A stretch of DNA of 64,000 nt from a virus. The notes below the pieces were generated by a model. The model had not been told where the DNA came from. It worked only from the letters and a program-made list of their open reading frames with translations, and made no database searches. The position numbers and the translations under genes are program-made. Every line of letters begins with the position of its first letter. Position 1 is the stretch's first letter. Where the stretch lies: positions 1 to 64,000 of the IMG/VR virus record IMGVR_UViG_3300027749_002876, one strand, 5' to 3'. Shown here piece by piece: positions 6,765-37,866 of this stretch.

Positions 6765-8807
6765 ATGAACTTAAAAGAGCTTGATTCCTTCAAAATATCT
6801 GACGCCGTCACTTTCCATGACAAGCTTAACCCTGCGTTGTGGGCAGGAAATAAATTGCGTCCTGAAGTTAAAAATCAACTAGAAGAAATAGCAAAAGACT
6901 TCCTAGAAGAAATGGGTATCAATGATTTAGATGTTAGAGATATTACTATCTCTGGGTCTAACGCCGCATACAGTTATACAAAACACAGTGACTTGGATTT
7001 ACATCTCTTAGTCAATATAAATGATTTACCTAATAATGATATATACCGTGAATTCTTTGACGCAAAGAAATCATTATACAACGATAACCATGATATAACT
7101 ATTCATGGGGTTCCCGTAGAGTTATATATACAAGATGCCGCACAACCATCAGTGTCGTTAGGAGAATACAGTTTACAAAATGATAAGTGGTTGCGTATTC
7201 CTACAAAGCGTAGAGCTAACTTTGACCAATCAGCTACAAGATTGAAGTATGAAAAATTACTTGATATTGTAGAAAGAGCATTAGACTCAAAGAACTTAAC
7301 TAAAATTCAAAAAGTATTAAAGAAGATTAAGCAATATCGTCAAGCCGGGTTAGATAAAGGTGGCGAGTTTGGTCCTGAGAATTTAGCATATAAAGCATTG
7401 CGTAGTCAGGGGTATATTACAAAATTACACGATTTAAAAAACAAGTTGCATAGTGAGGTATTAACCATTGAAACTATGTATCAAAACATTGATGAAACCT
7501 TTGACCAACCTTATAAACTTAAATGGGAAAAAAGTGATTACGGTGACGTTGATGCCTATGCTAAAATGGATGATGGTAATTATCTAAGTATTATGTTCAA
7601 CAAAGGATATAATCAAGATAAGGAAGAAGCATGGAGTGTTGAGTTCTACAGAAACAACAGCCAAGAAGTTACCGGTGAGGGTGATGCACAACGTGTATTT
7701 GCTACTGTATTAAGTGCTATTCAAACATTCATTAAAAAATACAAGCCCAACAAAGTAATCTTTTCAGCTAGTAAAGAAGTTGAAGATGGACAAAACTCAG
7801 AAAGTAGAGCAAGACTATATGATAGTTTAGTTCAGCGTTATGCTAGAGCATGGGGATTTAGAGCATTTCGTGCTGATACTGGTAATAAAGTTATATACGA
7901 ATTAAGTAGAAAGCAACCGGTAGATGAAGATATCAGCCGTAGAGGATTCTTAAAAGGCATGGGCGCGGCAGCGGTAACAGGTAGTGCTAAGGCTGGTCAA
8001 TATCAATCTTCTACTGAAATAAGTCCAGAGCAGATGCAACAAATTTGGAAGCCAAGAAAAGGTGAGTTAGAAACTAGATGCTATGCTATATTAAAATCAT
8101 TTGCTAATAGTATAGCCGAATCGCATCCTGATTGGGTTAAAGTAATTCAAAAAATAAAAGTAAACACTACTTTAGGTGATAAAGTATTTCGTCAAGGAAA
8201 TGCCGCAAATTCTAGAGTATCATCTAGGGTAGTAAATGGTAAACCGATAGGTGTACAAGCCGGTCAAATTGGTATCGAAACAACTGTATTTTGGGATGCT
8301 CCTAATGATACGCTTGCTTTTATTTTAGGTCATGAGTGTGGACATATAATTATGAATCATGGGTTTTCTTTGGCATCTGATGCTAGAAATAATGAACAAG
8401 AAGCAGATATTATTGGAGCCTCTCTTGCTAAAAAAATAGGTTATGACAGGGCTAATTTCTTTAATTTTTTATTCAATGCTAAAGCTGAACAATTAAAAAA
8501 TGGATCACCCAATGATCCTCATTTAGAACCAGTTGATAGAGTAAAGTTTTTGAAAAAGAATGCTGATTTTGAATTATCACATAACACTATACAATATATT
8601 GATTCACTTGCTCAACAACTAAAGCAAGGCTTAGCAGAAGCAAGTGGCTATATCCCTAGTGAAAAAGAAAAAAACGATCCACGTTTTAAGACAGCATTAA
8701 CAGTAGATGTAGGACCATATAGCATCAAAAAGAACGCAAAAGCATTTAGCTGGCTTACATCAAGGGCCGGCATTCCACCAACAGCAAGCCCAAATGGTAA
8801 GGTATGA
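6765..8807 (+). CDS. Multidomain protein: nucleotidyltransferase, acetyltransferase-like module, Tat motif, M48-like metallopeptidase
   Basis: This 681-residue protein joins unrelated parts. Residues 50-230 are a pol-beta-like nucleotidyltransferase (GSN...SDLDLHLLV). About 245-378 is a module also present in the minus-strand gene at 33875. V-D-E at 386-388 resembles a T4 prohead-protease site and is followed at once by a twin-arginine motif SRRGFLK (391-397) and an Ala-rich h-region. Then comes an M48-like zinc peptidase with HECGH at 523-527 and ExxAD at 544-548. The tail after L-A-E/A (DPRFKTALTVDV) looks like a recurring phage module. I chose the ATG at 6765 over an upstream TTG. Cleavage at E388 would free a peptidase with its own Tat signal; this is inferred. 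Confidence 0.82.
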   Translation: MNLKELDSFKISDAVTFHDKLNPALWAGNKLRPEVKNQLEEIAKDFLEEMGINDLDVRDITISGSNAAYSYTKHSDLDLHLLVNINDLPNNDIYREFFDAKKSLYNDNHDITIHGVPVELYIQDAAQPSVSLGEYSLQNDKWLRIPTKRRANFDQSATRLKYEKLLDIVERALDSKNLTKIQKVLKKIKQYRQAGLDKGGEFGPENLAYKALRSQGYITKLHDLKNKLHSEVLTIETMYQNIDETFDQPYKLKWEKSDYGDVDAYAKMDDGNYLSIMFNKGYNQDKEEAWSVEFYRNNSQEVTGEGDAQRVFATVLSAIQTFIKKYKPNKVIFSASKEVEDGQNSESRARLYDSLVQRYARAWGFRAFRADTGNKVIYELSRKQPVDEDISRRGFLKGMGAAAVTGSAKAGQYQSSTEISPEQMQQIWKPRKGELETRCYAILKSFANSIAESHPDWVKVIQKIKVNTTLGDKVFRQGNAANSRVSSRVVNGKPIGVQAGQIGIETTVFWDAPNDTLAFILGHECGHIIMNHGFSLASDARNNEQEADIIGASLAKKIGYDRANFFNFLFNAKAEQLKNGSPNDPHLEPVDRVKFLKKNADFELSHNTIQYIDSLAQQLKQGLAEASGYIPSEKEKNDPRFKTALTVDVGPYSIKKNAKAFSWLTSRAGIPPTASPNGKV

Positions 8808-10006
8808 ACGATACTATTTGTAAATATGTATTCAATAGTATCACCATATCAAACAGCGGAACAGTAGACCCTTGTTGTGCACCAAATGGCCCGCATACTA
8901 AAGTATACCATGATAAAATAAAAAATCCTTTAGTTATACATGATGACTTTAATGAGGTATTGAACAACACCCAAATAGTTAATCTTAGAAAATCAATGGT
9001 TGCCGGAGAAAAAAATTCACTATGCGATACATGTTGGCAGAGTGAAAGAATTAATGGTGAGAGTGAGAGAACTTTAGGAAATACAAATTTACGAAATTCT
9101 GATGTATATAACAAAATAATTGATTTTTCAAATATATTTCATATTAACTTATTTTTAGGAAATAAATGTAATTTAGCATGTAGAATGTGTAGTCCTTGGT
9201 GCAGTTCATTAATAGCAAAACAAACTGACATTATTTACCAACGACCACCTACACCAATTATTCAATTTAATGATGATACTCAACAAAGAATCATTGAATT
9301 TATAGACAATAGTGAAAACTTAGAAAAAATTCATATGTATGGTGGTGAACCATTAATAAATGATTTCTATGATTTAATTTGCTCACATTTAATAGCTAAT
9401 GGAAGAGCCTCAAAAATCACATTGGATCTTTCAACTAATCTGCAAGTTGATTTAGAAAGAAAAAATGAATTACATCGTCACTTTAAGAATGTACACATTG
9501 CAGTAAGTGTAGACGGTGAGGGGGATACATATGAGTACATCAGATGGCCCGGTAATTGGAATAAAATACAAAATAACTTAAAAATATTAAGTAATACTAG
9601 GAACGATTTCCATGTCTCATCAGTAGTACAAAATTTAAATATTGATAATCTGTCAAATTTGATGGTATATTTAAGCACCATTGAAAATTTTAAATATCAA
9701 AATAGTACATACCGCAAAGTAACTAGTCACACCAATATAAATGATATTAAAATTATACCAACATGGGTTATAGAGCGTGAAATAGATCGTTTAAAAGCAT
9801 TAAATCAAAACATGAATTATACTATACATGCTTTAGTTAAGATGCTAGAAGCCGAAGTTGAACCATCACGTAACTTAGCATACGAAGAAGTTGCTACTTT
9901 CTTCAAACAACAGAAAGATTGGGATTCTCTTAGAAATCAAAATCTTTTTAAAACAAAGCCTCATTTTTTAGAGTTGGCCAAGCAATTTAACATCGAACCC
10001 TGGTAA
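8804..10006 (+). CDS. Radical SAM protein, twitch/SPASM-like type
   Basis: The Cx3Cx2C motif CNLACRMC (Cys122, 126, 129) binds the 4Fe-4S cluster that cleaves S-adenosylmethionine, and MYGGEP follows about 50 residues later. An N-terminal Cys set (DPCC near 24, CDTC near 72) suggests an auxiliary SPASM-like cluster placed ahead of the core. Such enzymes often modify peptides. The ATGA overlap with the upstream polyprotein-like gene suggests co-expression, and that neighbour could be a substrate. A second member lies at 44071. The family is firm, the substrate unknown. Confidence 0.85.
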   Translation: MNDTICKYVFNSITISNSGTVDPCCAPNGPHTKVYHDKIKNPLVIHDDFNEVLNNTQIVNLRKSMVAGEKNSLCDTCWQSERINGESERTLGNTNLRNSDVYNKIIDFSNIFHINLFLGNKCNLACRMCSPWCSSLIAKQTDIIYQRPPTPIIQFNDDTQQRIIEFIDNSENLEKIHMYGGEPLINDFYDLICSHLIANGRASKITLDLSTNLQVDLERKNELHRHFKNVHIAVSVDGEGDTYEYIRWPGNWNKIQNNLKILSNTRNDFHVSSVVQNLNIDNLSNLMVYLSTIENFKYQNSTYRKVTSHTNINDIKIIPTWVIEREIDRLKALNQNMNYTIHALVKMLEAEVEPSRNLAYEEVATFFKQQKDWDSLRNQNLFKTKPHFLELAKQFNIEPW

Positions 10007-10027
10007 GTTCTAATTGATATGGTATTT

Positions 10028-10035
10028 GATAAATA
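10028..10035 (+). promoter_or_regulatory. T4-like late promoter GATAAATA
   Basis: GATAAATACT lies 22 bases before the ATG at 10058. It falls inside the longest open frame (which opens at 10019), which argues for the later start. Confidence 0.6.
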
Positions 10036-10057
10036 CTACATAACTTTGGAATTCGCT

Positions 10058-10855
10058 ATGAAAATCAATCAAATCGTACAAGAAACTACTACATCGGGAT
10101 CCGTTGCCCCAGTAGAGCATAGTTTTGTCAAAATGCAAACTCGCAGTCCTAGTGTCTATGGAAATACAAAAGCAGGATCACTATTCAAAGGTAAAAAGAC
10201 TAGTAAGCCTTTTGCTAACAGCATCAATGAGGGAGCAATGAACCAACTTTCAATGGACTTGAAAGGTGGAGTTGATGGATTATCTGACGAAGAATTTCAA
10301 AAGAAATATAAGATGACTAAGCAAGAAGCTCGCAAAGAGTTGACCGCTAATAGAAAAGACAACAAGAAGCCTGAAAAAGTTAACGAAGCTGACTTACAAG
10401 AAGATGATATCATAGTAGTTCCTGGTTATGGCCGCACGAGAAAAACTGGATTTACAAAGCATGGTCAAAGTCGTGTTGACCATGAAGTTGAAATGGCACG
10501 TAGTGATGTACTAGCTACAATGAAGAATGCCAGAGTAATCTACGAACTATTAAAAAATAAGTCAGAAGAAGAAGGATTAGAAGGCTGGGTACAAGAAAAA
10601 CTTATCAAAGCAAACGATTATCTAAACGCAGTAAAAGAATACTACGATGAAAAATTAATGCAACGAGAAGGCAAGATTGACTTTGCTAAAAAGATACAAA
10701 AAAACGTAGACAAGAGTAACAAGGCAGTAGTAAAGACTAGTAAAGAAGTTGGCTCAAGAGTTGCTGATATTGGTGCAGGTGGCAAAGAATATAATGTCAA
10801 AACTGACAAAGCATGGGATGATGCACACAAAGCTAAAGAAAGTAAAACAAAATGA
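10058..10855 (+). CDS. Putative internal head protein, 265 aa
   Basis: From the ATG at 10058 the protein begins MKINQIVQE/T, resembling the T4 capsid-targeting peptide MKTYQEFIAE/A; a further I-N-E/G occurs at SINEGAMNQ. The body is Lys/Glu-rich and helical (residues 130-240), with no enzyme motif. The upstream ATG at 10019 would place the late promoter inside the gene and is rejected. The gene overlaps the 1220-residue modular protein by ATGA. Packaging in the head is inferred from the N-terminus and charge. Confidence 0.65.
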   Translation: MKINQIVQETTTSGSVAPVEHSFVKMQTRSPSVYGNTKAGSLFKGKKTSKPFANSINEGAMNQLSMDLKGGVDGLSDEEFQKKYKMTKQEARKELTANRKDNKKPEKVNEADLQEDDIIVVPGYGRTRKTGFTKHGQSRVDHEVEMARSDVLATMKNARVIYELLKNKSEEEGLEGWVQEKLIKANDYLNAVKEYYDEKLMQREGKIDFAKKIQKNVDKSNKAVVKTSKEVGSRVADIGAGGKEYNVKTDKAWDDAHKAKESKTK

Positions 10856-13800
10856 GTAGCATTTTAAAAGGTTTACAACTAAACGAATTATCTAATAAAA
10901 AATTAGGTGACTACAAAACAGCCGCAGGTGCTGATGCTACTGCCGCTGATAAAGAAGGTAACTATAAGCGTGGCGACAAGCGTATGAGTGGTATTATCAA
11001 AGCAACTAAGAAACAGTTTGCTAATGATGAAAGAAAAAAAGATGTGACAGAAACAGGCATTCCATTTCGTGGAGTGGGCGGCGCATTCAATCGCGGTGAT
11101 GATGAGCGACATGATTTAGATGTACCAAAACAAGTAAGACCTCAAGTTTGGGGCTTAAAGATCAATGGCAAAGTATGGAGCAAAGGTGGAAAATCAGTTA
11201 CATTCAATAGTAAAGACGCTGCCTTGAATATAAGAAATTCTATATTAAAGAATCGTCCTGATTTAGAAATTGGTTTAATAACTAAGGGCGGACAACAAGG
11301 TATGGCGGAAGCCACTGGTGATAAACCTTTTGACAATATGATGAAGAACATATCAAAAGGTACTAATAAACAAAAAACCTTAGACCGCAAGGAACAGCAA
11401 AAACAAACTCAACAACGAGCACGTGATGCTTTTGACAATATGTTTGGTGGTGGCAATCCTGCAGACAAATTAAAAATTAGAGAGCAAGGTGTGGCGGAAG
11501 GCTCAACTAACAGTAAATCAATAATTACTGAAACACGCACATACAAGTTATGGGAAAGTGCTGGTAAGAAGTTATATGAAGCACAACTAACAGCCGATCA
11601 AATTAATCAAATTTTTCAACAAGTAGAACAGGGTGCAACAGCGGCTGGCGGTAATCGCACTATGCTTGGCAGAGGCAAAGATGCTACTGCCGCTATAAGT
11701 AAAGCCTGGGAAGAGTTAAAAACTAAAGTACAAAATTCAGGACCTATTAAAGGTGTTGACGCTATGTATGACAAGGCTGCTGAACAATTAAAACAAGCAA
11801 CTGGTGGCGATCAAGGTGTCATGCAGTATGTTCAGAAGTATCGTGATTTTGCTAAAAAACATCCAATTGCACAGAGTTTAATTTATTCAGCATTGATTGC
11901 GGCTGCTGGTATTTCAGGTGCAGGTATTGGTGGTGCAGCCGCATTAGGTCTATTCAAACTAGTAGACAAACTATTGCAAGGCGAAAAGTTCAGTAGTGCC
12001 GCATACGCCGGTGCTAAAACTGGTGGCATGGCTTATGCCGCTGGCCAGATTGGTCAAGCGTTAAAAGGTACGCCTCAACAAGAATTACCCGGAGCACAAG
12101 GAGCACCTGGTCAATCTGAACTAGATCAAATCTATATGAATCGTGCTCAAGGGATGCAAGGCTCGGGTTATACGCAAACTGCAACTGGTCAAACAGGTGA
12201 CTTTGGACAACCAACATATAATATTATACCAGATGGTGGTGGTAGTTCGTATGACCAAGCATTCAAACAAGGTCTTGCAAAGTTTGCTGTCAACCCTAGT
12301 AACCCAAGCGCAAACGATATAATGCGAGCCAAAGACTATGCAGGAAAAGTAGCTTCTGGTATGCTTAAGCCTGTTAAGGAATCAGTAGAACTAACTGAAA
12401 GTCAAATCTTCTTACTGATCGGTAAGATAGTTGAACGTCACCGCAAACTTGATGAAGGGATCATGGACACCATCAAAGGCGCCGCAGGTAAGGCAGTTGA
12501 CTGGGCCAAGACCAAAGGCACTAACTTAACAACTAAAGTTACTGCTGACAAACTATTACAAGCATGGAAGAAAGCAGGTAGCCCAACTGACAGCTTAGAC
12601 ATTGCTAGTATTGTTCAACGAGCTGGCGTGCCAACAGCTACTATTAAACAAGTGTTTACTAACATGAAAATACCAGTGCCAGGTCAACCAGCAGTGGCAG
12701 CAACACCAGGTCAACCAGCAGTGGCAGCAACACCAGGTGCTAAACCAGCAGTGGCAGCAACACCAGGTGCTAAACCAGCAGTGGCAGCAACACCAGGTGC
12801 TAAACCAATTCAGACAACTACACCAGCTATAGTATCAGCACCGGCGGCAGCACCTGCAACCAAAATGGCAGTTCCTGCTCAAAAAACAACTATACCTCAA
12901 GTAGCACCTGTGGCTAAAGCGGCCGGAGCTACAGCACCTCAGGGGTTTAATGCTAGTAATGTAATGAAGATGCCTGGTATGGAAAAGTACGCTAAACCAG
13001 CAGTTGCAAAACCTGCGAATTTCAGCGGTGGCCCAACTGGTTACTCTAGTATGAATACTACATTTAAACAACCAGCAGTAAAACCAGCAATGGCAGCAAC
13101 ACCAGGTGCTAAACCAGCAGTGGCAGCAACACCTGTTGCACGTGTAGCAGAGGAATGGAGTCAAAAATACAAAAGCAGTATCAACTGTAGCCACCCCAAA
13201 GGCTTCTCACAAAAAGCTCACTGTGCTGGCAAGAAAAAGCATAATGAAAGTATTGAGATGGAAATGGTCTGTGAGGATTGCGGAATGTGTCAAACACACG
13301 GAGATCATTCACATGACAACTTAGAAGAAGCCTGTTGGAAAGGTTATCACAAAGAGGGTAACAAAAAGATGTTTGGAAAACAATATCCAGACTGTAGAAA
13401 GAATACAAAGGAAGGTGTGGCGAAGGGCCTATCAGAAATGGACAAATCACAAACTCCGCCAGGACGAGACGGTCACGTAAGTCATGGCACATACGGTTCG
13501 AGAGACAAGAAAGATCCAGATTCTGGTAAGAAGCAATACTACGGCAAAATGGAACGCCCTGAAAAAACAACCAAAACGGCATCGGATATTCTTAACAAAG
13601 CATTTAATAAAGGTGTAGCGGAAGAACAACATAGTTGCCCACATTGCGGTGGCGAGATGGTCAGTGAAGAACTAATGAACGAAAAGAAAGATGCTTGCTA
13701 CTACAAAGTCAAGAGCCGTTATAGTGTATGGCCTAGTGCTTACGCTAGTGGTGCATTAGTCAAGTGTCGTAAAAAAGGCGCAAGCAACTGGGGCAACGGC

Positions 13801-14514
13801 GGCAAGAAGAATGAGAGTTCTATTTTAGAAGGTATTGAACAAGCAGATGAAAGTTTACATGATTGGTTCAATAAAGAAAAATGGGTTCGCATGGATACTA
13901 AAGGAAAGATTAAAGGTCCATGTGCAAGAGAACCAGGAGAAGGTAAACCAAAATGTTTGCCACAAGCAAAAGCGCATAGCCTAGGTAAAAAAGGTCGTGC
14001 AAGTGCCGCACAACGCAAACGCAGAGAAGATCCTAATCCAGACCGGCATGGTTCAGCTATAAATGTCAACACAAAGAAAAAATCTAACGAAAATATAGGC
14101 GAGGGTTGGAGAGAAAAACTAGGCGCAGCCGCATTAGCCGGTTCTATGGCATTAGGCGCAGCCGGTGCACATGCTAGAGTTACCCCTGATGGACAAGGTG
14201 GCTTTACCGGTGGATTAAAACCCACAGCAACCGTGACAGCACCAGATAATACTCCATCTGCTACCGCACCTACTGCTTCATCTGACACATCAGATCCTTT
14301 TAAAGGTTTAGTCCGTGCTGATAGTGCCGATAGACAAGCAAAGACTATAACTGTTGACGGAAAAGAGTATGGACTTGTTGAAATATCCCCAACTGATATT
14401 AGACCACGTGGTGGACAACGAATCGTTGTTCCTCAAGCAGTATTAGGAGAACGAGGTATAGGAAACTATACAGGTATTCTAGTAGGTGATAGAGTATTTG
14501 TTATAAGTAAGTAA
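10852..14514 (+). CDS. Giant modular virion polyprotein, 1220 aa
   Basis: The protein is a string of short modules divided by (L/I/V/M)-x-E/(G/A) sites: MAE/A, VAE/G, LYE/A, LDE/G, LEE/A, ILE/G and IGE/G. Visible modules are a beta segment WGLKINGKVWSKGG near 100, a Gly/Ala-rich membrane-active-looking stretch (about 340-400), Pro/Ala repeats (about 610-650), Cys/Lys modules (INCSHPKGFSQKAHC; CWKGYHKEG), a zinc-ribbon-like CPHCGGE, a YYKVKSRYSVWPSAYASG module, and a DUF5872-like basic domain (SLHDWFNKEKWVRMD). After I-G-E1084 comes a Sec-like signal with an AHA site at 1106-1108, then a 112-residue tail. Modules like these recur in phage proteins; packaging and processing are inferred. Confidence 0.8.
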   Translation: MSSILKGLQLNELSNKKLGDYKTAAGADATAADKEGNYKRGDKRMSGIIKATKKQFANDERKKDVTETGIPFRGVGGAFNRGDDERHDLDVPKQVRPQVWGLKINGKVWSKGGKSVTFNSKDAALNIRNSILKNRPDLEIGLITKGGQQGMAEATGDKPFDNMMKNISKGTNKQKTLDRKEQQKQTQQRARDAFDNMFGGGNPADKLKIREQGVAEGSTNSKSIITETRTYKLWESAGKKLYEAQLTADQINQIFQQVEQGATAAGGNRTMLGRGKDATAAISKAWEELKTKVQNSGPIKGVDAMYDKAAEQLKQATGGDQGVMQYVQKYRDFAKKHPIAQSLIYSALIAAAGISGAGIGGAAALGLFKLVDKLLQGEKFSSAAYAGAKTGGMAYAAGQIGQALKGTPQQELPGAQGAPGQSELDQIYMNRAQGMQGSGYTQTATGQTGDFGQPTYNIIPDGGGSSYDQAFKQGLAKFAVNPSNPSANDIMRAKDYAGKVASGMLKPVKESVELTESQIFLLIGKIVERHRKLDEGIMDTIKGAAGKAVDWAKTKGTNLTTKVTADKLLQAWKKAGSPTDSLDIASIVQRAGVPTATIKQVFTNMKIPVPGQPAVAATPGQPAVAATPGAKPAVAATPGAKPAVAATPGAKPIQTTTPAIVSAPAAAPATKMAVPAQKTTIPQVAPVAKAAGATAPQGFNASNVMKMPGMEKYAKPAVAKPANFSGGPTGYSSMNTTFKQPAVKPAMAATPGAKPAVAATPVARVAEEWSQKYKSSINCSHPKGFSQKAHCAGKKKHNESIEMEMVCEDCGMCQTHGDHSHDNLEEACWKGYHKEGNKKMFGKQYPDCRKNTKEGVAKGLSEMDKSQTPPGRDGHVSHGTYGSRDKKDPDSGKKQYYGKMERPEKTTKTASDILNKAFNKGVAEEQHSCPHCGGEMVSEELMNEKKDACYYKVKSRYSVWPSAYASGALVKCRKKGASNWGNGGKKNESSILEGIEQADESLHDWFNKEKWVRMDTKGKIKGPCAREPGEGKPKCLPQAKAHSLGKKGRASAAQRKRREDPNPDRHGSAINVNTKKKSNENIGEGWREKLGAAALAGSMALGAAGAHARVTPDGQGGFTGGLKPTATVTAPDNTPSATAPTASSDTSDPFKGLVRADSADRQAKTITVDGKEYGLVEISPTDIRPRGGQRIVVPQAVLGERGIGNYTGILVGDRVFVISK
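12682..12807 (+). repeat. In-frame tandem repeat coding (GQ/GAK)PAVAATP
   Basis: Two 27-base units are followed by two 30-base units and a 12-base partial copy, nearly identical in sequence. They encode a Pro/Ala linker inside the modular protein. A related copy occurs near 13081-13135. The units are prone to copy-number change by slippage or recombination. Confidence 0.9.
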
Positions 14515-14526
14515 TAAGGAATTTAA

Positions 14527-15967: not shown

Positions 15968-15968
15968 A

Positions 15969-16226: not shown

Positions 16227-16802
16227 ATGCGTATTGGGGAAGTTTTATCAGAATCAGCAATAAATAAACTAGCAACAAAATTGCCTAGCTTAGAAAAGCA
16301 CGACTATACTACTCTAGATAAGCTACTACAAACCGTAGCCAAACAACACAATCTTACTGGAAAAGCGTTACATGACTTATTTGTTAAAAAATTTCATACA
16401 ACACCAGATAATTGGATTAAGAACAAAATAGATGAGGATGATGTTGATTCTGATTTGCAAAATGAAGTTGACAAATTCTGTGAGTGGGCTTGTCAACAAC
16501 TTCATGTACAAAATAAACCACATATTGAATTGAGCATGGATACTGAAGAAGCTCAAACAAATCATCACACCGGAGGTCATGTCATGGGAGATGATAATAT
16601 TTGGGTATACGTGAATAATCGCAATCTAGTTGATGTCTTACGCACAGTATTCCATGAATTGGTACATGTTCGTCAGGGTGAGTTGAACATGATATCACCG
16701 GGAGACAGTTATCCCGGTAGCCCGATTGAAGCAATGGCAGATATGCTAGCAGGCAAATATATTAAAATCTATGGTGAAAAGAATCATAAAATTTTTCAAT
16801 AA
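16227..16802 (+). CDS. Zinc metallopeptidase with capsid-targeting-like N-terminus
   Basis: FHELVHVRQGE contains the HExxH zinc motif (His143, Glu144, His147), and PIEAMADMLAG supplies a likely third ligand Glu168, a gluzincin-like arrangement. The N-terminus MRIGEVLSE/S resembles the T4 capsid-targeting sequence with a gp21-type cut. Residues 5-75 are helical. A virion-packaged peptidase could act on host proteins or cell wall after injection. The peptidase motif is clear; the target is unknown. Confidence 0.75.
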   Translation: MRIGEVLSESAINKLATKLPSLEKHDYTTLDKLLQTVAKQHNLTGKALHDLFVKKFHTTPDNWIKNKIDEDDVDSDLQNEVDKFCEWACQQLHVQNKPHIELSMDTEEAQTNHHTGGHVMGDDNIWVYVNNRNLVDVLRTVFHELVHVRQGELNMISPGDSYPGSPIEAMADMLAGKYIKIYGEKNHKIFQ

Positions 16803-29528: not shown

Positions 29529-29557
29529 TTTACAAATTCTGCTGCCTATGCTATAAT
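29529..29557 (+). promoter_or_regulatory. Sigma70 promoter for queD
   Basis: TTTACA (29529-29534) and TATAAT (29552-29557) are 17 bases apart, followed by ATAGGAG before the queD ATG at 29575. Confidence 0.72.
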
Positions 29558-29574
29558 ACAACATAGGAGAAAAC

Positions 29575-30057: not shown

Positions 30058-30473
30058 TGTTGAAAACAGAAATGGTAGATAAGGTAGGACATACCTTAGT
30101 AGACATATTTCATAGGCTTGCATTGTTTGCTATTGGTGCCGCAACAGTATGGGCAGCCGGATGTACTTTCGTTGAACTGTTTCAGAAACATCATGCCTCA
30201 GTCGGTGACCTGTTGTTGATGTTTATTTATTTAGAAATGGGTGCAATGGTAGGCATTTATTTCAAGACCAATCATATGCCTGTTAGGTTCTTGCTATACA
30301 TTGCAATCACAGCACTAACACGACATATGGTAGATATAATGAGTCATCAGCCAATTAACATTGTTGAAATGTTATCTGTAGCCGGTTCTACATTTGTTAT
30401 AGCAATAAGCGTATTAGTTATTAGATATACTAGTGCAAAATATCCTAGCAACAATAAAGACGAGGTAGCTTAA
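30057..30473 (+). CDS. PsiE-like phosphate-starvation membrane protein
   Basis: Four hydrophobic segments (about 18-40, 50-68, 77-92, 103-125) make it an inner-membrane protein. FIYLEMGAMVGIYFKTNHMPVRFLLYIAITALTRHM is the conserved stretch of the PsiE family, induced by phosphate starvation in E. coli. Its biochemical role is unknown. Phages often carry phosphate-stress genes, but this one lies inside the queD-queE operon. Confidence 0.75.
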   Translation: MLKTEMVDKVGHTLVDIFHRLALFAIGAATVWAAGCTFVELFQKHHASVGDLLLMFIYLEMGAMVGIYFKTNHMPVRFLLYIAITALTRHMVDIMSHQPINIVEMLSVAGSTFVIAISVLVIRYTSAKYPSNNKDEVA

Positions 30474-30664
30474 TGAATAGTTTAGAAAAAATCTGGGCAA
30501 GAGCGACCGGTCATCTGATGGGTAATACAGATGATGATCGTCCTGACGTTCCCATTCTTACATTGGGTGAAGCAAGAATTGCATTGTTCCTAAAAACTTT
30601 CTGGGTGGTGTTACATGTGATAACATGTTGTTTCATCATAGCAAATACAATCAGACATTGGTAA
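30473..30664 (+). CDS. Small single-span membrane protein, 63 aa
   Basis: A hydrophobic stretch (FLKTFWVVLHVITCCFIIANTI, about 39-60) close to the C-terminus suggests a tail-anchored membrane protein. It is coupled by stop/start overlap to the PsiE-like gene and may work with it. No family is recognised. Confidence 0.65.
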   Translation: MNSLEKIWARATGHLMGNTDDDRPDVPILTLGEARIALFLKTFWVVLHVITCCFIIANTIRHW

Positions 30665-30665
30665 T

Positions 30666-31514
30666 ATGGCACAATTAAAAATTTCAGAATTATTTTATAG
30701 TATTCAGGGTGAAGGTAGATACATGGGTGTTCCCTCTGTGTTCCTACGAACTTATGGATGTAATTTCACATGCGGTGGCTTTGGAATGTCTAAGGGAGAA
30801 ATGAGTAGTGAGAGAGATGTTATTGCAATTAAAGCAGAAGATTATACAGATTATAAATCCCTACCGCTTGTCAGCACAGGATGTGATAGTTATGCATCTT
30901 GGGACCCTCGTTTCAAACATCTTAGTCCTATGCTCACTACCGATAATATTGTTGGTAGTATTATGGATATACTCCCTCATAGTCGTTGGATGGATGAGCA
31001 CCTTGTTATCACGGGCGGTGAACCTCTGCTTGGATGGCAAAGAGCATATCCAGAATTACTTTCACATGAAAAAATGAGAAGTCTCAAAGAGATTACATTT
31101 GAAACTAATGGCACACAAGAACTCAGTCAAGATTTAAAAATATATCTACAACAATGGAAGATTTACAGAGAAAAAAATGCACTTACATTTAGTGTTAGTC
31201 CTAAACTAAGTATCAGCGGTGAAAAGTGGGAAGAAGCAATACTTCCCGATGTTATTACTCAATATGAAGACGTTGGTTTTGTATATCTTAAATTTGTTGT
31301 AGCGACAGAAGATGATGTACTAGAAGCAGAGAAGGCAGTTAAAGAATATCGTGTTGCAGGATTCAGAGGTCCAGTCTACTTGATGCCGTGCGGTGGTGTT
31401 GAAAGTATGTACAGTATGAATGCTAAGAATGTAGCGATTGCGGCAATGAAGCGTGGATGGCGTTATAGTGACAGACTTCAAGTGCCGTTGTTTAAAAACG
31501 AGTGGGGCACATAA
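30666..31514 (+). CDS. queE: 7-carboxy-7-deazaguanine synthase (QueE), atypical cluster spacing
   Basis: FYSIQGEG, FLRTYGCNFTC, ITGGEPLL and FETNGTQ are QueE signatures. The enzyme makes 7-carboxy-7-deazaguanine (CDG) from carboxytetrahydropterin using radical SAM chemistry. The third cluster cysteine is not at the usual short distance: Cys32 and Cys36 are followed by Cys73 (STGCDSYASWD), with about 36 residues inserted. The family has other spaced variants (Cx14Cx2C in Burkholderia). No QueC follows, so CDG may be the end product used by DpdA. Confidence 0.87.
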   Translation: MAQLKISELFYSIQGEGRYMGVPSVFLRTYGCNFTCGGFGMSKGEMSSERDVIAIKAEDYTDYKSLPLVSTGCDSYASWDPRFKHLSPMLTTDNIVGSIMDILPHSRWMDEHLVITGGEPLLGWQRAYPELLSHEKMRSLKEITFETNGTQELSQDLKIYLQQWKIYREKNALTFSVSPKLSISGEKWEEAILPDVITQYEDVGFVYLKFVVATEDDVLEAEKAVKEYRVAGFRGPVYLMPCGGVESMYSMNAKNVAIAAMKRGWRYSDRLQVPLFKNEWGT

Positions 31515-31732
31515 TGCCACAAACACAATCATACGATCATTTCTATGAAAGAATGATAGGAGCCGAATATAAGTTTGCTTGGTTTCCAGAAACGTGTCAT
31601 TTGTCAGGTAAACGTGTTTGGTTAAAGAAAGGCTACAGATTAACTAGAATTATCACTGGCCCCGGCGATTCAATCTTTGAATATCGTTGGCACGACAAGA
31701 ACGAACATATAATTTGGAAATTAAAACAATGA
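31514..31732 (+). CDS. Small conserved phage protein, 72 aa
   Basis: The ATG at 31514 shares a base with the queE stop and the end overlaps the glycosyltransferase by ATGA. It is rich in aromatic and basic residues (YKFAWFPETCHLSGKRVWLKKGYR, WHDKNEHIIW). It looks like a small beta protein; its role is unknown. Confidence 0.65.
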   Translation: MPQTQSYDHFYERMIGAEYKFAWFPETCHLSGKRVWLKKGYRLTRIITGPGDSIFEYRWHDKNEHIIWKLKQ

Positions 31733-33054
31733 GAACATACGACAAACGTATTGGCTTTTTGGTAAGTTATCAAACATTGATACCGCATGGTGGTATAGGA
31801 CAGTTTGCTAAAAGCTTCTGTGAGTTGATGGATAGTCACAATATCAAAGTTGATATCATTACTGACAAAGAACCACAAGATAATGAATTTGTAAAATCAT
31901 TAAAAGCAAACATTATCAGTCCCAAAGAGTCATTGCCTTATACAACACACAGTAACATCTTTATGTATGGTGATACATTCTGTTATGAGCGTATGGCTAA
32001 CTTCCGTAATGCGATTATAGAAGCATTAGAACATAACTTGTACGATGTATTTGTTTGTAACACATATGAAGCAGTTCAGGTTGCTAGTACTATTGGTCTT
32101 GAAGATGTAATTCAAATCATTGCTTATACACATTTAGAAAGTCAAATCTTTAAAGATACTAAGAATCCATTCTTGTACAATACAAATGTGTTGATGCGCC
32201 AGCAGTTAGAAACAGAAAATATTTCTGTAGGTACGCAAAGTGTATTCAACTTGTTACATGTTAACGGAACGGCACATCATCTTCCTATTCCAATAACTGA
32301 ACGTGACTTGTTGACTGAGTATACAGGCGAGCGTGAAGGCATATTGTTTGTTGGTCGATGGGAAGAAGGAAAAAATCCTGAATTGTTTATTGATTTGATT
32401 GAACAAACCAAACTACCTGCTAAAGTAATGACTAGCCCCAATGGCGTAAAGAAGTTTGAAGAACGATTAAAGAAGATTGGTGCAACATACGATGTTCGTG
32501 CCAGCATTGTAGGACAAGATAAAGTAGATTTTATTAAGTCCAGTAGAATTGCATTTAATCCTAGTGTCGTTGAGAGTTATGGTATGGCATTCTATGAACA
32601 ATATATTCAATTACCTACACTTGTATTAGAGAATCAGCGTTGGACTAACAACTTTAATAACAGTTTTTTCTATACTTGTAACAAAAAGAACATGGCTGAG
32701 ACAGCAAAAGAGTTATATGATATCTTTGAAAAGACTGAAAGATGGTATAATCTTGGTTCACTAGAACATGCAAAGCAACAAGAATCTACAGTGTTTCACA
32801 AGTGGAACGAATGTTTTTCTGACTTTTCACCTAGAAATTCTAATACTAATACAGCTAAGATTTGCAATGAAACGACTACAACACATAAAGATTTTATTGA
32901 AAAGCTAGGTCGTAGTGTTATTTGTATTGATGATGTTCGTAGTGTGTTAACTAACAAACACAAGTTTCGTGTAATATATACAGACAATGACACATACTTG
33001 ACCAAAGACCCTAGTTTTGAACCAACAGAGGAAGAAAGTTTATTTTCATGGTAA
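31729..33054 (+). CDS. GT4-like glycosyltransferase
   Basis: A GT-B enzyme with the N-terminal motif HGGIGQFAKSF and the C-terminal donor site: ILFVGRWEEGKNPELF near 205, then AFNPSVVESYGMAFYEQ, the ExxxE-type donor-binding block of family 4. It overlaps the epimerase gene downstream, which would supply or convert a UDP-sugar. The acceptor is unknown. The last 80 residues are an uncharacterised extension. Confidence 0.83.
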   Translation: MRTYDKRIGFLVSYQTLIPHGGIGQFAKSFCELMDSHNIKVDIITDKEPQDNEFVKSLKANIISPKESLPYTTHSNIFMYGDTFCYERMANFRNAIIEALEHNLYDVFVCNTYEAVQVASTIGLEDVIQIIAYTHLESQIFKDTKNPFLYNTNVLMRQQLETENISVGTQSVFNLLHVNGTAHHLPIPITERDLLTEYTGEREGILFVGRWEEGKNPELFIDLIEQTKLPAKVMTSPNGVKKFEERLKKIGATYDVRASIVGQDKVDFIKSSRIAFNPSVVESYGMAFYEQYIQLPTLVLENQRWTNNFNNSFFYTCNKKNMAETAKELYDIFEKTERWYNLGSLEHAKQQESTVFHKWNECFSDFSPRNSNTNTAKICNETTTTHKDFIEKLGRSVICIDDVRSVLTNKHKFRVIYTDNDTYLTKDPSFEPTEEESLFSW

Positions 33055-33872
33055 AGAAAGTTTTAATCACAGGTAGTAGTGGCTACATAGGTAGTCATCT
33101 TGCAAAGATGCTTGAGAAAGAATATGAAGTCTATGGACTGGACGTTCGTCCCCCTCAAGTTGAGATGGAAAGATTCATGCAGGTGAATATCAATCAACCA
33201 TTTACTATTGAAGAAGAATTTGATTGTGTGATTCATTTGGCTGCATTGGTTCGTGTTAGTGAAAGTGAGTTGAAACCTATTCAATATTATATCACTAACT
33301 TGAATGGTACGATGAATGTAGTAAACAAGATTAAAACAAAAAACTTTATCTTTGCTAGCACAGGTCTTGCTGAGTATTGCTATGATCCATATGGTACTAG
33401 TAAGAAAGCCGCAGAAGATGTAGTGAAAGAATTTTGTACTACTCATCGTCCAACACCATATACAATCTTTAGATTTTATAACGTTATAGGAAGCACCGGC
33501 GCATCCCCTACTAACCCCGATGGGTTAATGTATAATTTGTTGAAGGCACGCGAGACAGGTGAGTTTACCGTGCACGGCAATGACTATGATACCCGTGATG
33601 GATCATGTGTGCGTGATTATGTTCATGTGAATGAAATTTGTGATGCATTGCAACATGCTATTGAAAACCCTAGCAATCAAATTGAATGTTTGGGACACGG
33701 TGTTGGTAGAACTGTTACCGAAATTGTAGATATGTTTAAGAAAGTCAACAATGTTGATTTCTCTGTTCAAGTAGGTCAAAGAAGAAAGGGTGATTTACCT
33801 TCAACCGTGTTAGAAGATGTATCACCCTATATGCAGAACTTGTATACGTTAGAAGAATTACTTAAAGTTTAA
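33048..33872 (+). CDS. NAD-dependent sugar epimerase (GalE/SDR extended family)
   Basis: The NAD-binding GxxGxxG appears as ITGSSGYIG (Gly9, 12, 15), and the catalytic YxxxK as Tyr115/Lys119 in DPYGTSKKAAED. RFYNVIGS and RDYVHVNEI are typical of UDP-glucose 4-epimerase and related enzymes. At 274 residues it is shorter than GalE (about 338), as are many phage or polysaccharide epimerases. It ends three bases from a convergent minus-strand operon. Confidence 0.9.
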   Translation: MVKKVLITGSSGYIGSHLAKMLEKEYEVYGLDVRPPQVEMERFMQVNINQPFTIEEEFDCVIHLAALVRVSESELKPIQYYITNLNGTMNVVNKIKTKNFIFASTGLAEYCYDPYGTSKKAAEDVVKEFCTTHRPTPYTIFRFYNVIGSTGASPTNPDGLMYNLLKARETGEFTVHGNDYDTRDGSCVRDYVHVNEICDALQHAIENPSNQIECLGHGVGRTVTEIVDMFKKVNNVDFSVQVGQRRKGDLPSTVLEDVSPYMQNLYTLEELLKV

Positions 33873-33874
33873 CT

Positions 33875-34807
33875 TTATAGTCCAATCTTGCCTGGATACA
33901 TTGGACCAGATTTGATTCTTTCACCACCGTCAAAATAAGAAATCTCAATTGGCAATGTGTCCCATCCAAGTTTTGCGGCTGCCATAATTCTATGATTACC
34001 TTCGTTAACCCACGCACTACCATCATATGCTACATTAATGAAGGGTTTATACTCTTCGCCGGTATGTCCGTGTAATGGTAATTTACCGGTGCTGTTCATT
34101 ATTTTCATTATGGCAGCAAGATCATTGTGACGAATATTTGATTGCTCACGGCGCATACCCGGTATTTGTCTTAGTATATTAACTGGAACATTAACATTCC
34201 TAACAGTAGCAGTAGTCTTGCCCATATAGGGTAGACCATTACGGTCAGGACTTTTACTTTTAGCATAATCAATAGCGTCTTGCAACCAATCTTCATTGGG
34301 TACATCTACGCTTAATACACCTTCTGTCATTTTATTCTGGGGTTTGTCATATGCTCTACGGTCAGTTAAATGATATTCCATTCCGTTGTTTTTGCTATAT
34401 TTCTGATATAAATCCCAATCAGGCAACAAGCGTTGAATCATCTTAGCATACAATCCAATACGGCTATCTTCTTTAGCGTTGAATGTAATTTCTTCTACTT
34501 TATCAAGACCATACTCTTTGATAAATTCACGTGTGATATCAACTGCGGTAGATAATACTTGTGCTGAATTGCCTGTGCCAGTACGCCCGAACAAGTCTAA
34601 ATATTCGGGATCAGTATCATTTCTTAACAAACGAAATTGTATTTCCCACTTAGTAGGGTTACTATGTGGATTACTAAAAGCAAGCCATTGATAATCTCTA
34701 TCACCTACTGTAAAATTGGCAGCGGCTTCTTCACCACCGCGAAACTTCCATTCCCAGTTCTTCTTACCCGGCTGAAATATTTCAGTAATGAATTCAGTGG
34801 CTCTCAC
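33875..34807 (-). CDS. Putative virion protein: acetyltransferase-like module + ParB-like domain
   Basis: The N-terminus MRATEFITE/I resembles the T4 capsid-targeting peptide. Residues about 30-150 resemble a module of the large protein at 6765 (SxQVLSTAVDITREFIKEY; ARLY/GLYxxxxQR). A linker with M-T-E/G precedes a C-terminal ParB/sulfiredoxin-like domain with VNEGNHRIMAAAKLGW near 275, a nucleotide-binding GNHR signature. Last gene of a four-gene minus-strand operon; it overlaps the dismutase gene. Confidence 0.72.
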   Translation of the reverse strand: MRATEFITEIFQPGKKNWEWKFRGGEEAAANFTVGDRDYQWLAFSNPHSNPTKWEIQFRLLRNDTDPEYLDLFGRTGTGNSAQVLSTAVDITREFIKEYGLDKVEEITFNAKEDSRIGLYAKMIQRLLPDWDLYQKYSKNNGMEYHLTDRRAYDKPQNKMTEGVLSVDVPNEDWLQDAIDYAKSKSPDRNGLPYMGKTTATVRNVNVPVNILRQIPGMRREQSNIRHNDLAAIMKIMNSTGKLPLHGHTGEEYKPFINVAYDGSAWVNEGNHRIMAAAKLGWDTLPIEISYFDGGERIKSGPMYPGKIGL

Positions 34808-35358
34808 AGACTCTTACCCCAACGAGTGTTGATTACATTCCAGTTGATAATCTTCCACTGTTCTTTTAAGTATTTCTTTTTATCACTACCATAGTCTAGT
34901 ATAAAAGCATGTTCCCACCAGTCAATAAGCAACAGTATGTCATCACGTACTTCATGGTTTTTAATTGTTTTAACTGTGCCATCATATGCAAGATAGACCC
35001 AACCACTACCCTGAATCTTCATAGCAGTTTCTTCAAACTCTTTACAAAATGATTCAAAGCTACCAAACTTTTTATTGATAAATCCAAACATAGGGCCGTT
35101 TGGTTTATTGTTATTTCTTATTTCACGAAATTGCGGAAAGTATGTATTGTGCAAGAATGCACCAGCAAAGTTAAAATCAGGATCGCCTTCACCTTTGTTG
35201 TATCTTTTAGCATAGCCTTTGGCTAGAGTATCATAATGAAAATGAATACTTTCTTTACTAAGTACAGGTGCTAAATCACCCTCTTCAAAGTTAAGTGGAA
35301 TGATTTCTATATCTTGAGACTTTGACTTATCCTCAAGTAACTGAATCAAATCACGCAT
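34804..35358 (-). CDS. sod: Fe/Mn superoxide dismutase
   Basis: All four metal ligands are in place: His41 (HFHYDTLAKGY), His70 (FNFAGAFLHNTYF), Asp146 and His150 (IDWWEHAFILDY). SGWVYLAYDG and YLKEQWKIINW complete the family pattern. The enzyme converts superoxide to oxygen and peroxide. The first ten residues, MRDLIQLLE/D, look like a capsid-targeting peptide with a gp21-like site, unlike normal SOD N-termini. Its place in an operon of such proteins suggests that it is carried in the virion. At 184 residues it is slightly short. Confidence 0.9.
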   Translation of the reverse strand: MRDLIQLLEDKSKSQDIEIIPLNFEEGDLAPVLSKESIHFHYDTLAKGYAKRYNKGEGDPDFNFAGAFLHNTYFPQFREIRNNNKPNGPMFGFINKKFGSFESFCKEFEETAMKIQGSGWVYLAYDGTVKTIKNHEVRDDILLLIDWWEHAFILDYGSDKKKYLKEQWKIINWNVINTRWGKSL

Positions 35359-35359
35359 C

Positions 35360-36973
35360 TTAGTGTCTCAATAGCAATGTTGAAATAATGTTGGGATCGT
35401 TAGCACTGATGTCACCTTCACCTGGAGCAACGATAACATTGTACTTCATACCTGCCGGGATAGATTTACGCTTGGCCATGTACTCATCGTATGATAAGAT
35501 ACTGTTAGCACTTAGTCCATACTCACTAGCCAATCTTTGTTTTAGTTCAGGTAACTTGTCAGGTTGTACTTGCCATTGGCCACTTGACCCCTTAACTAGG
35601 TTTTTCTTTTCATCCTTAACTAACAAGTCTTGGAACAAATCATCTGGAACAATACGACTGTTCTTAGTTGTATCTAAGTTAGCGTCTTTAGCTTTAACTT
35701 GTTTCTCTTGACTTGTGTTAGCACCTTCACTCCAATTGATAATGAAGTTTGGTGGTTTCTGTGCAAGTGCGGCACCTGCCATCTTAGTGTAAGCATAGAA
35801 TTTAACGTCAGGATGCTTTGCAGCCATCTTCAATGCCATGTCTAGGTATTCTGGGCTAAAGAAGTCGCCTGCATCATGCCAGCGAATAGTAGTTTGCCAA
35901 CCATTAGGGAATTTCTTGTCACCCTTCTTACCCATTGCTTCTTCTTTAGATATCTCGGCACTTAACTGGTTAAAGAAACCACTTGGATCATTCAATAGAT
36001 ACGTTAATATTCTTCCGTCACTTTGCCAAGCAGCCTTGAACTGTACTTTACCACCCTTCATAGCGAAACAATCTACTTTACATGAGCCAGCACCCGGACA
36101 TGTGTTAACAATGATTAGATTGTTAGTAGATTCATCTACTGCGATACCAGTTAATGCGGCAAAGCCAACATTGAAGAATTGCTCAAACTCTCCATTGCTA
36201 TGCTTCATTTTTTCGTTTTGCTTTAGTAATGATTTTGGGCGTTGTGATAATGATTGTTTAATTTTATCTTCATCATATGTCTTACCATCTGGACCCAAGT
36301 ATTCAATGATACTTGACCGATGGATATAAGGCATCTTGTACTTGTCGCCTTTAGTCTTACCAGAGACATACTTCTCATTACCCTTTTTGTCTAATTTAAC
36401 TTGACCAGTCTTCTTGTCAATGTCATCAGTACCTTTAATACGATTCATATAGTCTTGGAACTCTTGACCTTTCAAATCACGGGTACTTGCTGGTAGTGTA
36501 GTAGCTTCTTCTAGACCAGATAGTTTACGAATTCTATCTAGTGTTTCTGAAATATCTTCTCCAAAACGTTTTTGATATACATTAGAATCCATTGAATTTC
36601 TACTACCAATAGTTTTCATTCCCTCACCGGCTAGCAATAAATCATACATTAATTTAATAACTTTTACAGGAGAAGTCAATGTGTCAACTCTATCATAGAA
36701 ATAAGCAATTTTTTCAGGCTTCATTCTACGAGCAGGCTTGCCTTTAATTAATTCTTTAGCACGTGCCTTAAGAGTGGCAAAATCACGAATTTTTTCTAAT
36801 TCATGTATATCATTTATATCAAAATTATCACCTTCAATATCTTCATCTACTTCTTCTTCCCCGGGCATATCGCCAGCTTTAGCAACAAATTGTTGAGGTG
36901 TCATAACTTGAACACCATTAACTGCTCCGGGTAGCTTTGGCGTCACACCTTCGTATAATTCTTTAAAGTTCAT
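35360..36973 (-). CDS. Gp88-like protein with capsid-targeting-like N-terminus, 537 aa
   Basis: MNFKELYE/G at the start and L-E-E/A at the end of the N-terminal part (about 155) are gp21-type sites. The C-terminal part (about 230-430) resembles the Gp88 family of phages: NTCPGAGSCKVDCFAMKGG with a Cys cluster, IRWHDAGDFFSPEYLDMA and KFYAYTK. The Cys set could bind iron-sulfur or zinc. The molecular function of Gp88 is not established. Acidic low-complexity lies near 35-55. It overlaps the upstream gene by ATGA. Confidence 0.72.
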   Translation of the reverse strand: MNFKELYEGVTPKLPGAVNGVQVMTPQQFVAKAGDMPGEEEVDEDIEGDNFDINDIHELEKIRDFATLKARAKELIKGKPARRMKPEKIAYFYDRVDTLTSPVKVIKLMYDLLLAGEGMKTIGSRNSMDSNVYQKRFGEDISETLDRIRKLSGLEEATTLPASTRDLKGQEFQDYMNRIKGTDDIDKKTGQVKLDKKGNEKYVSGKTKGDKYKMPYIHRSSIIEYLGPDGKTYDEDKIKQSLSQRPKSLLKQNEKMKHSNGEFEQFFNVGFAALTGIAVDESTNNLIIVNTCPGAGSCKVDCFAMKGGKVQFKAAWQSDGRILTYLLNDPSGFFNQLSAEISKEEAMGKKGDKKFPNGWQTTIRWHDAGDFFSPEYLDMALKMAAKHPDVKFYAYTKMAGAALAQKPPNFIINWSEGANTSQEKQVKAKDANLDTTKNSRIVPDDLFQDLLVKDEKKNLVKGSSGQWQVQPDKLPELKQRLASEYGLSANSILSYDEYMAKRKSIPAGMKYNVIVAPGEGDISANDPNIISTLLLRH

Positions 36974-37866
36974 TTTTTAAGATTCCTAATTTTCTGTTCT
37001 GCCAACATTACCAATTGTTCTAATTGCTCTACACTTTCACAATGCCATCTACGCAAACTCTTATTGATGTTACTGTTTGGATCATTTGCTGTTTTAGCAC
37101 CGGTACGATGTTTCTTCATACCTCGCATTCTAGCACAGAATGATTTGCGACGGGCGGCGGCCTTGCTACCTTTTTTAAGTTTGCTTGGCTTAGTTGTAAC
37201 TGCTGTTTGAATCTTGCTACCAGGATGACTACGGCGATAGCTAGCTACACTCTTTTTACTCATGCCACCCACACGCTTGTGATTGTACTTTGACCAGTTC
37301 TCGCCTTCGTTTAATTCTAAATCACTGTGATTAAACGCAATGTATGTGTCACCATTAACATCACCTGGACGAATTAAGAACACACCTGCATCGTCATCAC
37401 CTGATTCATCTTGACCAATTTCCCAACCCATTGCTTCCAATGTTCTTTGTGCTTTAGCCATTTGTTGTTCTGTGCCCAACCACCATTGTGCGGCAAGTTG
37501 ACGTAATATTTCTTCCTCATCAGGTTCACGGTCATCATCACTACCAAGTGCAAATTCATCTAAGTAACCTTCATCAATATTTGGATTACCAATTTGCTCT
37601 GCTACACTATTTAAACGGTCATTACTAGTTGTGACATAACTATACATCCAACCATCTAAACTAGTACCACTGTCTAGTTTTTCTTTGATTTTTACAGCAT
37701 TTCTAATTATTTCACGAATCTCACCCTGAGCCATGCCATTGACTTGTTCATCTTCCATTGCATAGCCTTCATTTTTAGGCTTTTTACCAGCTTTCTTCAT
37801 GGCAATAGCAATGGCAGCTTGCTGTGCTGGATTGGCTGCTTCATTGATAAATTCTTTTATTCTCAT
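36970..37866 (-). CDS. Modular virion protein with DUF6321-like basic C-terminus, 298 aa
   Basis: MRIKEFINE/A is the closest match here to the T4 capsid-targeting sequence MKTYQEFIAE/A. Further cut-like sites are I-D-E/G and L-N-E/G. The region after LNEGENWSKYNHKRVGG is strongly basic (MSKKSVASYRRSHPGSK, KLKKGSKAAARRKSFCARM) and resembles DUF6321, which I take to be a DNA-binding internal head module. The acidic middle may neutralise it before cleavage. First gene of the minus-strand operon, divergent from uvsE. A degenerate late-like GATAATAC just precedes its ATG. Confidence 0.75.
   Translation of the reverse strand: MRIKEFINEAANPAQQAAIAIAMKKAGKKPKNEGYAMEDEQVNGMAQGEIREIIRNAVKIKEKLDSGTSLDGWMYSYVTTSNDRLNSVAEQIGNPNIDEGYLDEFALGSDDDREPDEEEILRQLAAQWWLGTEQQMAKAQRTLEAMGWEIGQDESGDDDAGVFLIRPGDVNGDTYIAFNHSDLELNEGENWSKYNHKRVGGMSKKSVASYRRSHPGSKIQTAVTTKPSKLKKGSKAAARRKSFCARMRGMKKHRTGAKTANDPNSNINKSLRRWHCESVEQLEQLVMLAEQKIRNLKK

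Follow-up and report, generated by a model that had tools for sequence, protein, structure and literature searches.

A T4-like start peptide and predicted prohead-protease sites in putative cargo proteins of a freshwater jumbo-phage group

Why should a superoxide dismutase, a GP88-domain protein, a metallopeptidase-like protein and a protein ending in DUF6321 all begin in nearly the same way? In the window analysed here, the 64,000 nucleotides that form bases 1-64000 of the 524,565-base IMG/VR virus record IMGVR_UViG_3300027749_002876, these and other proteins with unrelated bodies carry variants of a start peptide of about nine residues, M-[KR]-x-x-[EQD]-hydrophobic-[ILV]-x-E, which would send them to the prohead core as the comparable peptide does in phage T4. 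The reading that we consider probable is that packaging and cutting in this phage group follow T4-style capsid targeting and prohead-protease processing, here enlarged to a modular cargo system built on polyproteins. The larger point, which goes beyond the initial annotation of this DNA, is that similar [LIVM]-x-E sites also lie inside multi-module proteins, where many of them stand directly ahead of segments resembling signal peptides.

The start peptide and the proteins that carry it

In T4, the first 10 residues are enough for packaging and the protease gp21 cuts after L/I-x-E (PMC9026906). The six T4-like N-termini that the initial annotation had listed are all true open-frame starts at the positions it gave (Table 1). 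Four of the six fit the strict pattern M[KR]xx.[hyd][hyd]xE, where hyd is a hydrophobic residue; the starts of the superoxide dismutase and the GP88 protein are looser, and their relatives keep L-x-E (MRDLIQLLE/A, MNFKELFE/G, MKIRHLLE/G). Across the whole record, for which we made 640 gene calls, the strict pattern opens 13 genes, where the internal positions of these proteins would predict 0.35-0.48. A motif profile built from these 13 starts and applied at a score of at least 7 selects 15 starts in the record (0.75 expected), a count that is circular because the profile was trained there, together with 10 in each of two related phages, G001 (364 kb; 0.69 expected) and G002 (352 kb; 0.52 expected), and 104 in 146 loci from further relatives (2.7 expected). 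For counts across phages we used a simpler pattern that also admits the 10-residue tag of T4: it is found 16 times in the record against 1.7 expected, 14 times in G001 (1.6) and G002 (1.4), four times in T4 (0.95) and three times in P-SSM2 (0.8), and it is near chance in S-PM2 (none, with 0.66-0.7 expected) and in phiKZ (one, with 1.19 expected).

The full start motif is about 10-40-fold above chance in the record and its relatives. Such an excess is difficult to attribute to a chance likeness among charged, helical N-termini. That explanation can appeal to the looser ending [LI]xE, which we dropped as evidence since it is only twofold above chance in the record (60 against 28-31), but the full motif sits at chance in phiKZ and S-PM2 and its enrichment recurs in independent genomes, so that we find coincidence scarcely credible. 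The search over all start peptides and the comparison with unrelated phages that the initial annotation had proposed thus both came out in its favour.

A peptide of about 10 residues that ends in hydrophobic-x-E and is shared across unrelated bodies, the mark of a T4-type capsid-targeting sequence, is what we find. Pfam confirms the DUF6321, Sod_Fe_C and GP88 bodies (Table 1), and the protein labelled as a peptidase has an invariant HExxH; the ParB-like label survives only as a weak fold match. In the 29-sequence alignment of the metallopeptidase-like family (window 16227), H143, E144, H147 and E168 (HExxH plus a distal glutamate) are invariant, as are M1 and E9 of the tag, with the residues between these two varying; a hydrophobic-x-E[SA] start is retained in 41 of 42 relatives. 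Its fold match to minimal metallopeptidases is weak (E 0.2-0.5), and by sequence it matches no solved structure. The AlphaFold model of the protein that starts at 34807 has a mean pLDDT of 61, with a disordered linker at residues 156-201 (below 50) that holds an MTE/G site, and its Foldseek matches are all weak, to GNAT folds at E 1e-3 to 0.1 and to ParB/sulfiredoxin folds at E 0.02-0.1. The best solved superoxide dismutases align to the window protein only from residue 18, which corresponds to their chain residue 4; about 14 residues are therefore extra, and the tag extends the protein beyond the usual N-terminus. The orthologue of the DUF6321 protein, at record position 493601, retains the tag as MRINEFITE over a body that is 40% identical, and some 40 homologues of the protein at 10058 keep hydrophobic-x-E at the start in varied forms. 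A second tag type occurs in the 1220-residue protein at 10852, in whose family [LIVM]xE lies inside the first 18 residues in all 29 distinct members. Among relatives, tagged proteins include GH19, amidoligase, GNAT plus ART-PolyVal and LRV-repeat proteins, and in three genomes GH19 occurs twice, one copy tagged and the other untagged.

The tagged genes cluster in two blocks, as the initial annotation had said. Its description of these as late blocks is supported by GATAAATA, a variant of the T4 late promoter TATAAATA, which lies upstream of the 10058 and 36970..37866 genes and is about tenfold enriched upstream of genes, with about 70 places in the record. The window also encodes mutually related radical-SAM-like proteins (8804-10006, with a CNLACRMC motif, and 44071-45333; a third at record 301184-302356), one of whose genes is placed within a cargo block.

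The prohead protease and evidence from virions

The gp21-like gene that the initial annotation had proposed to look for is present as the sole S77 gene of the record, between core and scaffold/capsid genes. The cluster around it, with identities assigned by position and resemblance, comprises a portal protein, a gp67-position protein, an acidic core protein, the protease, a scaffold-like protein and a gp23-like capsid protein, which shares 62-67% identity with annotated major capsid proteins. The gp67-position protein (74 residues), between portal and core, is itself tagged (MKLFEMFDE/A), and its gene is also preceded by GATAAATA. An S77 gene is present in all 16 IMG/VR relatives searched. In six of them, fetched around the protease, it must be there by design; the informative test is that exactly one was found in each of 10 large contigs identified through their cargo modules. 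S77 proteases are also present in PA5oct, T4, slurp01, Phosso and Vibrio 2.275.O, and phiKZ gave no match to the S77 model.

How this gene relates to the window depends on how the record was assembled. A direct repeat of 4089 bases at 99.6% identity (172924-177012 and 520477-524565) closes a phage of about 347.6 kb, and the first ~173 kb of the record, window included, are collinear with that phage in inverted order at ~70-80% protein identity. Judged from its sequence, the record joins a complete phage of ~348 kb to a ~173-kb fragment of another, related one, to which the window belongs; such a chimera should not be counted as a 500-kb phage. The window's own phage presumably has an S77 protease too, as its close relative does, with its head genes lying outside the record.

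Are tagged proteins found in virions? Indirect support comes from Pseudomonas phage PA5oct, whose capsid protein is 64% identical to that of the record and whose GenBank record carries an 'ESI-MS/MS' note on 93 of 374 proteins (25%); in the paper on its near relative MIJ3 the same mass-spectrometry phrase marks confirmed structural proteins. Five of the six PA5oct proteins with a profile score of at least 7 bear the note (p 0.004 against the base rate), as do all three homologues of tagged bodies: the gp67-position counterpart, which starts MKINDIITE, the GNAT-like module and the superoxide dismutase gp223. The link is seen with the full profile only, simple patterns giving p 0.15-0.78, and it is confined to top scorers, the whole score distribution being null (p 0.56). 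PA5oct offers a positive and independent hint, by proxy, that such proteins reach the virion. In the same genome (NC_071039, 260677-262300) three motif-bearing genes lie in tandem, two of them noted; the third (64 residues) is a candidate whose small size may explain the missing note.

These data bear on the idea that the common start is one leader, duplicated by shared descent and kept for expression rather than packaging. Identical tags on several genes (MRATEFITE, for example) and the clustering of tagged genes are what such a history would leave. Against it, the members of one orthologous family (29 sequences) differ greatly in their tags and yet all have E9, the bodies are unrelated, and motif proteins in PA5oct carry the mass-spectrometry note, all of which makes a shared leader very improbable. 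Instead, tagged proteins in the window's phage group are very probably packaged, and cutting at the glutamate of the start tag, as judged from the conserved motif and the accompanying protease, is quite likely.

Internal sites and the exchange of modules

The [LIVM]-x-E rule recurs at module junctions inside the longer proteins. Among relatives of the DUF6321 protein, FNHSDLELNE/ is followed by GWKDKLAAAALAG in one locus (L306) and by AYNNYHANR or AFNNYHANR in two others (L288, L366), the swap falling exactly after the glutamate. In two GP88 relatives (L324, L325), which start MNFKELFE/G, a signal-peptide module substitutes for the stretch between the two next sites. The most extensive case is the C-terminal 60-residue module (ASGYIPSEKEKN...) of the protein at 6765, hereafter the ASGYIP module: [LIVM]xE lies 0-1 residues ahead of it in 74 of 76 distinct contexts, with V, I, L or M at P3 and 13 different residues at P2, where chance predicts 1.7% per position. 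This module also stands alone in two relatives, directly behind a start tag (MKIAEIIQE/ASGYIPS and MKAKEFINE/ASGYIPS), and the second module of the 33875..34807 protein is likewise found by itself in a relative (L324_7021) as MRAKEFITE/GTLSVDVPNE. Two modules thus occur both internally and alone behind a tag, so that start tag and internal site are interchangeable.

Of the alignment boundaries within cargo proteins, 42.7% have a site, compared with 21.8% of randomly chosen places in those proteins; boundaries in other proteins show no such difference (10.1% against 9.8%). These values were obtained with the window of the test moved just inside the alignment starts, a change made after a first version, placed upstream of them, had given no enrichment (20.9% against 22.0%) and after the positional profile had been viewed.

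It could be argued that the start peptide targets the head but that the internal [LIV]xE junctions are uncut flexible linkers or recombination seams. Cutting here is a prediction, and short shared stretches such as QGVAEG could seam in-frame recombination. Yet 74 of 76 junctions conserve P3 and P1 but neither P2 nor the positions further upstream, a pattern that fits recognition by a protease better than DNA homology; one-residue shifts retain the site; and tag and junction can replace one another. We regard the linker or seam explanation as improbable, and think it likely that the internal junctions are cut, so far as this can be judged from conservation of the sites.

QGVAEG-type in-frame linkers do recur in cargo (window 10852-14514, G002 188672 and others), possibly as recombination seams as well as cut sites; the idea that GVAE is a mobile repeat peptide found only few copies per genome. 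Cytidylyltransferase-like enzymes fused at their rear to cargo modules or to a signal segment were also seen, at record 186027-187502, where the protein begins with MPGGFHPFHAGH, and at L228 7376-8917. A gene of about 310 residues with AIFGYG repeats has many diverged copies across the record.

Table 1. Features of the window and of the source record. Positions are those of the window unless marked as record; a slash marks the predicted cut.
Feature	Position	Strand	Basis or remark
Putative cargo MRIKEFINE/AANP..., 298 aa, modules ending in DUF6321	36970..37866	-	Pfam DUF6321 E 2.6e-10; open-frame start at 37866
Putative GP88-domain cargo MNFKELYE/G..., 537 aa	35360..36973	-	Pfam GP88 E 2.9e-24; open-frame start at 36973
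Fe/Mn superoxide dismutase, extra N-terminal peptide MRDLIQLLE/DKSKSQ	34804..35358	-	Pfam Sod_Fe_C E 2.6e-25; open-frame start at 35358
Tagged MRATEFITE/I..., GNAT-like then ParB/Srx-like parts	33875..34807	-	AlphaFold, Foldseek; GTG start at 34807
Tagged HExxH metallopeptidase-like MRIGEVLSE/S..., 191 aa	16227..16802	+	29-sequence alignment; open-frame start at 16227
Tagged MKINQIVQE/T..., 265 aa, without known domain	10058..10855	+	~40 homologues, ATG at 10058 conserved; longest ORF begins 10019
Multi-module protein, 1220 aa, second tag type MSSILKGLQLNE/L	10852..14514	+	Family comparison
Multi-module protein, 680 aa: nucleotidyltransferase-like, DUF6934-like, M48 peptidase, ASGYIP module	6765..8807	+	Pfam Peptidase_M48 E 1.6e-8, DUF6934 8e-6, TAT_signal 9e-4 (aa 389-406); NTP_transf_2 weak match in relatives
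Junction E, FNHSDLELNE/GENWSKYNHK	37306..37308	-	Three different following modules among homologues
Junction E, EDISE/TLDRIRKLSG	36545..36547	-	Relatives: NEGVAE/GLDRIRKLSG, same place
Junction E, KMTE/GVLSVDVPNE	34322..34324	-	Module also stand-alone in a relative
GVAE sites in the 10852 protein	codons 11497-11499, 13621-13623	+	
Junction E, NIGE/, immediately before Sec-like signal	14101..14103	+	30 distinct contexts
Junction E, NIDE/TFDQPY	7494..7496	+	4/4 contexts IDE/VNE/IDE/IAE before [TAG]FDQPY
Junction E, PVDE/, immediately before Tat signal	7926..7928	+	15/19 related Tat segments
Junction E, GLAE/ASGYIPS	8637..8639	+	74/76 distinct contexts
Junction peptide sequences QLKQGLAEASGY, RKQPVDEDISRRGF, NENIGEGWREKL			
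Sec-signal-like segment GWREKLGAAALAGSMALGAAGAHA	14104..14175	+	K/R, hydrophobic core, AxA layout
Tat signal DISRRGFLKGMGAAAVTGSAKA, then M48 domain	7929..7994	+	NCBIfam TIGR01409, 21.8 bits (cut-off 16.7)
S77 prohead protease (gp21-like)	record 353668-354312		Pfam Peptidase_S77 E 1.9e-27
AIFGYG-repeat gene copies	record 218-220 kb, 269-288 kb, 357-362 kb, 452-454 kb, 512-519 kb		

Signal segments and the proposed delivery route

Two kinds of signal-like segment follow these junctions. Segments like GWREKLGAAALAGSMALGAAGAHA, which near the end of the 10852 protein follow the junction NIGE/GWREKLG, have [LIVM]xE directly ahead in all 30 distinct contexts, a count that leaves out 11 site-less matches, unrelated sequences that a loose pattern had picked up. 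Tat-type segments (RRGFLKG...) have an acidic residue 2-4 residues ahead in 19 contexts, and in 15 of these [LIVM]xE lies no more than four residues upstream of the twin arginine. All seven Tat segments compared with the curated model TIGR01409 score above its cut-off (20.3-25.9 bits against 16.7), with matches beginning 2-3 residues after the glutamate; one query (segment 4) had erroneous tail letters, outside the matched part. In the 6765 protein the match begins at residue 2 after the junction glutamate, and VDE/DISRRGFLKGMG precedes the M48 peptidase. Elsewhere, Tat segments are followed by GH19 or, in L249, by a TonB C-terminal domain (E 1e-17).

It is tempting to suppose that these segments are silent while internal. 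The prohead protease of the phage would cut after the tag glutamate and, by the same rule, divide one packaged chain into several mature modules, the cut sites also being the places at which modules have been exchanged in evolution. At many junctions the module freed by the cut would begin with a Tat or Sec-like signal peptide, which would be hidden in the cell that makes the cargo and become accessible only when the head has matured. Injection of the cargo is likely on this scheme. After it, modules such as the GH19 muramidase-like domain, the M48 peptidase and the TonB/TolA C-terminal domain might be exported to the envelope of the next host, a step we put forward tentatively. The related notion that the maturation protease acts as an export switch, turning silent Tat/Sec segments N-terminal so that export occurs only in the next cell, is attractive but somewhat doubtful as well.

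A competing view is that the hydrophobic stretches behind the junctions serve as membrane anchors, or as helpers for entry into the cell, rather than as export signals. The Sec-like segments match no curated model and nine of the 30 lack AxA, both of which would suit an anchor; but a small-x-small motif is present in 29 of the 30 (AxA itself in 21), the Tat segments pass the curated model, and the Tat segments precede GH19, M48 and TonB C-terminal domains, types that are often active in the periplasm. We consider anchors or entry helpers a real, if less than even, possibility.

The scheme can be set beside three known systems. With the capsid-targeting sequence and gp21 protease of T4 (IPI, IPII, IPIII, Alt) it shares a start peptide of about 10 residues (MKTYQEFIAE in T4), the L/I-x-E rule, an S77 protease and unrelated bodies, one of which is an enzyme (PMC9026906, PMC3012670). 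It differs in having a tag of nine residues rather than 10, in the frequent V at P3 and in the 10-16 motif genes per genome, compared with about three or four in T4; among the named phages that we scanned, T4 included, none showed multi-module cargo that has internal sites and signal peptides. The second system is that of the polyvalent proteins (Iyer and colleagues 2017, PMC5512222), which are multi-domain and believed to pass into the host together with phage DNA. The chains here likewise bring several effector-type domains together on a DNA-injecting element, and the kinds of domain are alike: ART-PolyVal (E 1e-20) with GNAT in the tagged G001 protein 82862, ParB-like, metallopeptidase and lysozyme-type. 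Kinase-PolyVal, in tagged G001 361410, is under the cut-off at 0.02, and no Pfam polyvalent-domain model reached threshold in the window's own proteins. Polyvalent proteins are proposed to process themselves by an in-chain peptidase, and the passages considered describe no shared start tag, whereas here the prohead protease would process the chain at punctuating sites; the term 'signal peptide' is absent from its text. Finally, the inner-body and ejection proteins of phiKZ and SPN3US are also numerous, packed in giant phages and cut after glutamate by a prohead protease (PMC5694885), but their propeptides are long, up to 127 residues (PMC5694885), and the phiKZ protease is not matched by the S77 model. 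Among the open-licence papers searched, we found no account of such proteins being punctuated by a prohead protease, or of signal peptides being unmasked.

Several points weigh against a packaged and punctuated cargo. The S77 gene found belongs to the other phage of the chimeric record and not to that of the window, and the gene calls are our own. Two of the six listed starts score low with the profile, and four of the 19 Tat segments break the strict rule (T at P3, D at P1 or a shifted site). The density of [LIV]xE[AGSTN] is not raised in cargo, at 5.6 per 1000 residues as elsewhere, although it exceeds the expectation from composition by more in cargo (1.53) than elsewhere (1.23). Finally, the mass-spectrometry notes of PA5oct also fall on enzymes such as ribonucleotide reductase, and that list is not purely structural.

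If a packaged and punctuated cargo is nevertheless the right reading, a sequence rule of start tag, cut sites and mature modules would allow head cargo to be predicted throughout a freshwater jumbo-phage group that is abundant and whose genes mostly lack annotation. Dozens of unknown proteins would become putative injected effectors whose mature ends can be predicted. Were the masked signal peptides real, they would represent a novel means of holding back secretion until another cell is infected, as part of a modular delivery scheme that is testable with existing T4 packaging tools.

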